In this document: positions 26,265 through 27,200 of the stretch, one piece after another
Layout of the letters: each line of letters opens with the position of its first letter
Numbering within the stretch: the stretch's first letter is position 1
Source of the DNA: Polaromonas sp.
GTDB taxonomy: Bacteria > Pseudomonadota > Gammaproteobacteria > Burkholderiales > Burkholderiaceae_C
Length of the DNA: 40,491 nt
Direction: 5' to 3'
Assembly (NCBI GenBank): GCA_028292745.1
Contig: JAQGLT010000096.1
Location: 1-40,491 of the forward strand
Made by a program: the position numbers and the translations under genes
Notes under the pieces: generated by a model
What the model saw: the letters and a program-made list of their open reading frames with translations, nothing else
Told to the model about the DNA's origin: nothing
Database searches by the model: none

Positions 26265-27200
26265 ATGAAGCACATTCCACGCAAACGCTTCGGTCAGCAT
26301 TTTTTGACCGACCGGCTGGTCATCGAAAACATTGTCGACGCGATTGCGCCGCAGCCGGGCCAGCCGATGGTCGAGATCGGGCCCGGCCTGGCGGCCATGA
26401 CGCGGCCGCTGGTGGCGCGGCTCGGGCACCTGACGGTGATCGAGCTGGACCGCGACCTGGCGCACCAGCTGCGCTCGCATCCGCAACTGACCGTGATCGA
26501 ATCCGATGTGCTGCGGGTTGATTTCAGGCAGCTGGCGGAGCAGATGAGGCCAGAGGTGCCGAAAGCGAAAAGCCACGAGGCGATGGGCTCAGCCCCTTCC
26601 GCCCAGCCAGGGCCGCGGGACCGGCTTTACCGGACCGCAGGCGCAGCAGCCCCCACGGGGGGCAGCGAAGCACGCGAAGCGGGGAGCGTGGGGGCTCCCA
26701 AGCTGCGCGTGGTCGGCAACCTCCCGTACAACATTTCCACACCCATCCTGTTTCATCTGCTCGATGCGGTCGAGGTGATCGAAGACCAGCATTTCATGCT
26801 GCAAAAAGAAGTCATCGACCGCATGGTCGCCGCCCCCTCGACCAGCGACTACGGCCGGCTCAGCGTGATGCTGCAGTGGCGCTATGCGATGGAAAACGTG
26901 CTGCATGTGCCGCCGCAGAGCTTTGATCCGCCGCCGCGCGTGGACAGCGCCATCGTGCGCATGGTGCCGCATGCCGAGCCAGTGCAGCTCGATGTCAAGC
27001 TGCTGAGCGAGCTGGTGCGGGTGGCGTTCAGCCAGCGCCGCAAGCTGCTGCGCCACACGCTGGGGCAGTGGCTGGAGCGGCATGAATTTTCGGGGCTGTT
27101 CGATGTCAGGCGGCGCGCCGAGGAGGTGCCCGTGGCCGAGTACCTGGCGCTGGCGCAGCAGGTCCAGGCGGCGCGGCTTGAAAAGCCTATTGCGCTATAA
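26265..27200 (+). CDS. rsmA: 16S rRNA dimethyladenosine transferase RsmA (KsgA) with an inserted peptide
   Basis: Dimethylates A1518 and A1519 of 16S rRNA late in small-subunit assembly. Family motifs are clear: KRFGQHFLTD (residues 7-16), VEIGPGLAAMT (motif I), the acidic VIELDRDLA, GNLPYNISTPILFHLL (motif IV, from 151), MLQKEVIDRM and PPRVDSAIVRM. At 311 residues it is some 40 longer than usual. Residues about 95-145, immediately before the catalytic NLPY, have no counterpart in the family. They are encoded by a dispersed repeat (26570-26703) and read ...TAGAAAPTGGSEAREAGSVG.... In E. coli the flanks are adjacent (ELAEKMGQPLRVFGNLPY). The frame and all catalytic motifs remain intact, so the enzyme is probably functional. 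It is the last gene of the lptD-surA-rsmA block; a strong terminator follows at 27254. Confidence 0.94.
   Translation: MKHIPRKRFGQHFLTDRLVIENIVDAIAPQPGQPMVEIGPGLAAMTRPLVARLGHLTVIELDRDLAHQLRSHPQLTVIESDVLRVDFRQLAEQMRPEVPKAKSHEAMGSAPSAQPGPRDRLYRTAGAAAPTGGSEAREAGSVGAPKLRVVGNLPYNISTPILFHLLDAVEVIEDQHFMLQKEVIDRMVAAPSTSDYGRLSVMLQWRYAMENVLHVPPQSFDPPPRVDSAIVRMVPHAEPVQLDVKLLSELVRVAFSQRRKLLRHTLGQWLERHEFSGLFDVRRRAEEVPVAEYLALAQQVQAARLEKPIAL
26570..26703 (-). repeat. Two-hairpin dispersed repeat, copy C, in frame inside rsmA
   Basis: Reverse-oriented copy. The hairpin GCCCCC-ACG-GGGGGC is at 26649-26663, and a CCGG...CCGG segment with a TTTA-containing loop lies at about 26621-26633. It encodes about 45 extra residues of RsmA in the same frame as the SulP copy. 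Confidence 0.88.

Follow-up and report, generated by a model that had tools for sequence, protein, structure and literature searches.

A BRE-like repeat lies in frame within RsmA and other conserved proteins of Polaromonas

Introduction

In a Polaromonas sp., the gene for the 16S rRNA dimethyladenosine transferase RsmA (KsgA) encodes about 50 residues more than that of E. coli, directly ahead of the catalytic NLPY motif. Where does such a segment come from, and what does it mean for the enzyme that carries it? Repeats that invade proteins are familiar mainly from Rickettsia and from some bacteria that bear REPs. Here a common repeat of Polaromonas and its kin lies in many housekeeping enzymes, and among dozens of sequenced relatives a given loop can be empty, scarred, doubled or filled in either orientation. 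These loop states let one ask how proteins gain disordered loops and which loops accept them, and also whether selection filters the encoded peptide. We analyzed the forward strand of contig JAQGLT010000096.1 (assembly GCA_028292745.1), positions 1 to 40,491; this whole stretch of 40,491 nt is called the window below.

Results

RsmA carries an extra segment in an intact frame

The rsmA gene (26265..27200, + strand) appears in the ORF list as a single open reading frame of 311 aa, without a frameshift. The Pfam family RrnaAD (PF00398) spans residues 6-296 of its product, the NCBIfam ksgA equivalog (TIGR00755) matches as well, and the catalytic NLPY motif (26718..26729, +) is intact and invariant in alignments, which together assign the protein to RsmA/KsgA. 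Alignment to E. coli KsgA is interrupted after residue 94 and resumes at residue 146, a stretch that corresponds to 2-3 residues in E. coli. The extra segment comprises about 51 residues (95-145; 26547..26699, +), is missing from most relatives, and is flanked by AEQM and KLRVV(GNLPY). An earlier reading of this DNA, made from the sequence alone, had described about 50 extra codons between AEQM and KLRVV with NLPY and the remaining frame intact, and both statements are confirmed by the single ORF, the family models and the alignments. A dead gene is ruled out by the unbroken frame and the low dN/dS of the core (see below). No second full-length RsmA was found besides that of the window in a search of the 88% complete assembly.

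The same sequence-only reading took the extra DNA to be a copy of a repeat. This holds for about 35 of the 51 or so codons (26593..26699, +), which repeat comparison, genome search and frame reading identify as a copy read as ...AQPGPRDRLYRTAGAAAPTGGSEAREAGSVGAP; the rsmA DNA is complementary to 26142-26242, at 84% over 101 nt (pair I3). It does not hold for the 15 residues ahead of the repeat (95-109), which form a variable linker and are possibly a decayed earlier repeat copy.

The repeat is short, GC-rich and dispersed in the genome

The reading had also placed the repeat upstream of the gene and in three other places of the window, and all four copies were found. The inverted copy in the spacer upstream of rsmA occupies 26142..26243 (-), as determined by repeat comparison and genome search. 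The copy at 7749..7830 (+) turned out to sit in frame within a gene for a SulP-family permease (ORF 6221-8272), between the transporter and STAS domains. Genome search placed the other two, both on the minus strand, just past the ends of open frames: the one at 32281..32365 follows frame 30952-32271 and is also spanned by ORFs 31176-32432 (+) and 31213-32400 (-), which lay outside the family scan, while the one at 35790..35894 follows frame 34151-35788 and is spanned by ORF 35042-38158 (-), which has no Pfam match, and by two shorter ORFs outside the Pfam scan. The window holds further repeats: a 51-nt unit occurs twice in tandem at 35876-35977 (82%), adjoining a repeat copy (D14); a 46-nt inverted repeat, 83% complementary with a spacing of 20 nt, lies at 15262-15373 (I8); and 6031-6134 and 40114-40217 form a 104-nt inverted pair, 86% complementary, at which the BRE-like element is unmatched.

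In the genome as a whole, at least 52 matches to the repeat were found at E<=1e-3, a lower bound since 40 of 90 candidate places were scored. The other copies are 78-92% identical, and the best of them has an E-value of 1.5e-31, which rules out chance similarity. The repeat core is matched at E<=1e-4 in 57 places within the sequence fetched around the matches. The unit is short (~90-105 bp) and GC-rich (80.6% for the consensus), and occurs as full and partial copies, both dispersed and in tandem. Inspected by eye, its consensus ends, CCAGCCAGGG and GCGTGGGGGC, are not mutual inverted repeats, and the flanks of the copies yielded no strong consensus. Strong RNA structure was rejected, as the consensus folds much as shuffled sequences do (z -1.29 and -0.71). 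Nor does an Rfam family account for the repeat; the sole Rfam match in the window is a yybP-ykoY manganese riboswitch elsewhere, at 1752-1952 (+, 75.4 bits). No target-site duplication or mover was identified, and the only Y1_Tnp match lies on contig C69, which has none of the 52 repeat matches. The word 'mobile', used earlier for the peptide, thus finds support in the distribution of the copies but not in any mover.

Of 36 named relatives (L031-L066), 18 have a copy in the 260 nt ahead of rsmA, always in minus orientation and in none of the 18 in plus; three of the 36 loci (L036, L037, L057) were examined at the wrong place, their gene start differing. Some relatives with an upstream copy have no insert in rsmA. 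An order-wide search returned the repeat in 7 of 200 genomes, with at most four candidates scored per genome, which is too insensitive for a statement on range.

The insert drifts and is predicted to be disordered

The dN/dS values of the RsmA core are 0.106-0.250 in the 13 of 45 pairs listed, and the pN/pS values of the insert are 0.53-1.18 in the six listed pairs with like inserts. Hence, the rest of rsmA is under purifying selection while the insert drifts nearly neutrally. The AlphaFold model of the protein has a pLDDT of 73.5 and a pTM of 0.70; an earlier run with a narrow alignment reached a pLDDT of only 46.5. The model leaves the insert unstructured (pLDDT 31-53 in blocks 101-140) and puts it between a helix (residues 87-94) and the strand β4 (residues 147-152), while NLPY starts at residue 152, at the opposite end of that strand. 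A fold search with the model returned KsgA structures at the top, with rmsd values of 5.7-7.2 for the first four, too large for claims on distances. In the RsmA fold the active site lies at the far end of the strand, which makes closeness of the insert to it in space doubtful. The earlier description of a peptide beside the active site is therefore right for the sequence, in which the two adjoin, and not for the model, in which the peptide forms a disordered loop with NLPY at the far end of the strand. That the enzyme tolerates the peptide is suggested by purifying selection on the rest of the gene, though what it would tolerate is a neighbor of the active site in sequence only.

The RsmA site is filled in some relatives and empty in most

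The nearest named relatives belong to Polaromonas. Among 87 genomes of the genus, 81 have an RsmA locus and 80 of these were readable (G009, G026, G040, G050, G059 and G082 have no usable locus). The insert is present in 10 of the 80, a short scar with an insert-like ending in 5, and neither in 65; the pattern had classed G006 as a scar, which by eye is an insert and is counted as such. The alignment of relatives, proposed earlier as a check, thus finds the site both filled and empty, and a feature common to all relatives is rejected. Linkers without a recognized repeat range from about 7 to 41 residues, and older remnants may hide there. The absence of stops from the RsmA inserts is in part a consequence of the way in which the rows were read. 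In G037 the gene is split over two overlapping frames and is broken or misassembled. Beyond the main group, three named loci (L050, L056 and L081, the last from Hydrogenophaga) carry related inserts at the same place, and some RsmA proteins carry doubled insert units (P0010, P0078). Since the insert also occurs in isolates assembled into megabase contigs, P. glacialis and JS666 among them, it is no assembly artefact. In one further genome (G043, locus L122) the linker is a Gly-Thr dipeptide run without the repeat; the RsmA loop therefore also accepts simple-repeat expansion.

A quick tree of the RsmA flanks (92 rows; L140, L165 and L097 were left out because they did not fit the pattern, and G037 because it was not read) places the bearers in several separate positions and calls for 10 presence/absence changes, 7 of which are forced by well-supported branches. 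Such trees count changes rather than gains versus losses, and the rows of relatives are non-independent.

Loops of other conserved proteins are occupied as well

The insert is not peculiar to rsmA, the one gene in which it had been noticed. At least 13 internal in-frame sites occur in 12 genes of the genome, among 30 spanning ORFs scanned with Pfam, shorter ones lying outside the scan. Domain matches flank or enclose the insert in PriA (two sites), FdhD, SulP, an RND transporter, PurL, MoeA, ThrC, a FemAB-like protein and RsmA; the three sites in GlnE, an abhydrolase and a fatty acid hydroxylase were called internal by flanking sequence rather than by domains on both sides. In a second genome, G002, 9 of 20 fetched copies are internal, two of them (L298, L331) called so by their flanks; of the 20, three have no spanning ORF and three more were outside the scan. 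The FemAB-like, SulP and hydroxylase genes are common to both genomes. No internal copy was seen among 20 in G006 (JS666; 10 without a spanning ORF, 4 scanned, 6 outside the scan), so the density of internal copies varies among genomes.

We also followed the ThrC, MoeA and PriA loops in relatives, reading the best 30 loci of the 56, 60 and 61 genomes with a match, respectively; this score order favors insert bearers, and the filled fractions are not genus frequencies. Among the 30 ThrC loci, 9 carry the repeat in minus orientation, 3 a different repeat at the same place and 18 short loops. The different repeat (L216, L217 and L219, from G041, G053 and G043) encodes a peptide of the PHPNPLP...GEG type; L219, with a marginal score, is excluded from the BRE count. 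Plus copies fill PriA loop a in 10 of 29 loci read (one of the 30 was left unread). In PriA loop b, 7 of the 30 best loci hold minus copies, 6 plus copies, and 17 are empty or weak; the PriA tree gives 12 state changes for this loop, fewer of them forced by well-supported branches. For MoeA, 2 of the 23 read loci are filled, 7 of 30 being unread. Weak rows were not counted (9 of 83 for RsmA and one for each PriA loop). The opposite orientations in PriA and the different repeats in one ThrC loop speak for separate insertions.

Internal copies use one reading frame per strand

None of the six frames of the consensus contains a stop, and each frame is open in 36-46 of 46 near-full copies, so that stop codons are rejected as the cause of any frame preference. 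The central block of all 13 internal copies in the genome nevertheless uses a single frame in plus orientation (GPRNRLCRAAGAAAPSGGSEPREAGSVGA) and a single one in minus orientation (APTLPASRGSLPPEGAAAPAARQSRFRG). The chance of 13/13 is 6e-7 if three frames per strand are equally likely, and 1.5e-6 when weighted by openness. The same frames are used by 9/9 internal copies of G002 and, in five loops of relatives, by 45 of 51 inserts wholly and by the other 6 partly. Among the internal sites of the two genomes, part of the copy shifts frame in GlnE, in PurL, in the two hydroxylases and in SulP of G002, and the central block keeps the preferred frame.

As a control, copies in leaders and unsupported ORFs of the same genome, G002 and G006 show mixed frames. 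In the own genome, the RpoN, RlmL, LysR and RecO leaders fall outside the preferred frames and two glycosyltransferase leaders inside; in G002 and G006, L328, L334, L347 and L351 are outside, L326 and L344 outside or mixed, and L336, L346 and L314 inside. Mean net charge is lower in the two used frames (2.5 and 2.4) than in the other four (3.5-5.5); for aromatic residues and Cys the two do not rank lowest. We read the frame preference as selection on the translated peptide; a phase bias of the insertion is a possible source too.

Discussion

We consider it highly probable that a BRE-like repeat landed in frame in the RsmA loop between the helix and β4, adding a tolerated disordered peptide without a selected function. 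On this reading, the identity of the repeat and the intact frame being direct observations, a copy of a ~90-105 bp, GC-rich dispersed repeat would have arrived in the loop by some copying mechanism through which copies land widely. Selection would purge copies that disrupt the reading frame or the fold, or whose peptide is strongly basic. The survivors may then drift, duplicate in tandem and shrink by deletion to scars such as SVGA, and the insert peptide would be made and serve no selected function. Purifying selection outside the insert, the presence and absence of the insert in relatives, the repeated occupation of loops in other genes and the shared frame per strand are likewise observed. 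A wider proposal, which we find quite conceivable if short of probable, is that encoding a harmless linker in one frame on each strand accounts for some of the repeat's success. This would let it colonize protein loops in addition to intergenic DNA, and certain loops of widely conserved enzymes (RsmA, PriA, ThrC) would serve as landing loops, emptied and refilled repeatedly. If true, such landing loops would be a natural linker-insertion experiment across a genus. For annotation, the warning is that such protein stretches in Polaromonas and its kin are repeat DNA and not conserved domains.

The history of the RsmA insert could be told differently, by one ancient insertion that predates the divergence of the genera, with numerous later losses and local changes in tandem, the SVGA ending being inherited. 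Inserts and scars do end nearly alike (SVGA-x-K, at nearly the same place), also in the three loci beyond the main group; scars and partial copies exist, and the tree counts cannot separate gain from loss. However, the 65 of 80 rows classed by pattern as having neither insert nor scar demand many losses, the 5' halves of the inserts differ in subtype among clades, and the two orientations in PriA loop b and two repeats in ThrC would need inversion or replacement if each loop were entered once; we regard the single ancient event as rather doubtful. Much less likely still is a functional insert kept by selection, with the peptide modulating RsmA, or with the hairpin-rich DNA or its RNA acting as a regulator of the gene. 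Near-neutral evolution of the insert beside a constrained core, the free variation of its length and copy number, and an RNA folding no different from that of shuffles outweigh its retention in a group of related species and the occurrence of some internal copies in DNA/RNA enzymes (RsmA, PriA, an Lhr-like helicase).

The frame preference might also stem from an insertion target with a codon-phase bias instead of peptide selection. For ThrC and for the filled MoeA case, the beginning of the minus element coincides with a codon boundary, a reading for which the own-genome MoeA row was taken in the wrong frame. Such a bias would have to differ by orientation, as plus copies end inside an Ala codon and minus copies start at the boundary, the flanks of the copies show no strong consensus, and the used frames are those of lowest net charge, though not of lowest aromatic and Cys content; we judge it unlikely. 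As the insert is GC-rich and can form hairpins, removal of the segment from the RNA, during translation or from the protein (bypass or splicing), which would leave an enzyme that never carries the insert, was also considered. No support for it was found, the ThrC and PriA inserts, read without a stop filter, contain no stop, and the frame preference is easiest to understand for a translated insert; this explanation is extremely improbable.

Comparison with known repeats

The element resembles several known repeats. GTAG/CGTC REPs are short repeats of 20-40 bp that likewise lie inside many genes, often of replication and repair, and recB of two Xanthomonas species was struck by REPs at about the same site, according to the parts of PMC3733652 used here. 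The element here is longer, and neither GTAG nor CGTC is found by eye on either consensus strand; no link to a RAYT gene was seen, the single Y1_Tnp gene lying away from the repeat matches. The Rickettsia palindromic elements (RPE) are, in the portions of PMC2229807 (citing Ogata 2000 and Abergel 2006) on which we draw, repeats of 105-146 bp in frame in conserved protein genes, with terminal inverted repeats, and one RPE-bearing product, guanylate kinase, is translated and active. The parallel drawn by the sequence-only reading is apt in that the repeat here also lies in frame in conserved protein genes. It differs in having no obvious terminal inverted repeats and in its host, Polaromonas and kin rather than Rickettsia; the repeat works like RPE but is not filed as RPE.

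Very probably, the repeat is the Beta-proteobacterial repeat element (BRE), an identity based on host range, size and behavior. In the sections of Hot et al. 2011 (PMC3110155) used here, BRE is a GC-rich element of ~90 bp, complete or partial, that occurs both scattered and in tandem in Polaromonas, Rhodoferax, Acidovorax and Bordetella; some copies lie wholly within coding sequences, and copy number varies at a locus. The repeat here agrees in size, in its full and partial copies and in its dispersed and tandem habit, and the hosts fit; its high number in JS666 would fit as well. Those sections count 29 BREs in Polaromonas sp. JS666 and 4 in P. naphthalenivorans CJ2. We obtained 53 matches in G006 (JS666) and 27 in G005, whose RsmA linker is identical to that of P. 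naphthalenivorans P0097, with 40 candidates scored in each and thresholds unlike those of the BRE paper; the order is the same, and the counts here are higher. The GC content of the consensus is slightly above the BRE range in Bordetella (63.7-78.9%; BRE average 69%, same source). The same sections hold nothing on reading frames, encoded peptides or the repeated filling of one loop, and no published account of BRE reading frames, RsmA inserts or reused landing loops was found in a search with subscription literature largely outside it. RPE and REPs within genes are earlier examples of repeats that invade proteins, and the 2011 paper already noted BRE copies in coding sequences; the interesting part is the wider pattern of reused loops and a shared frame per strand.
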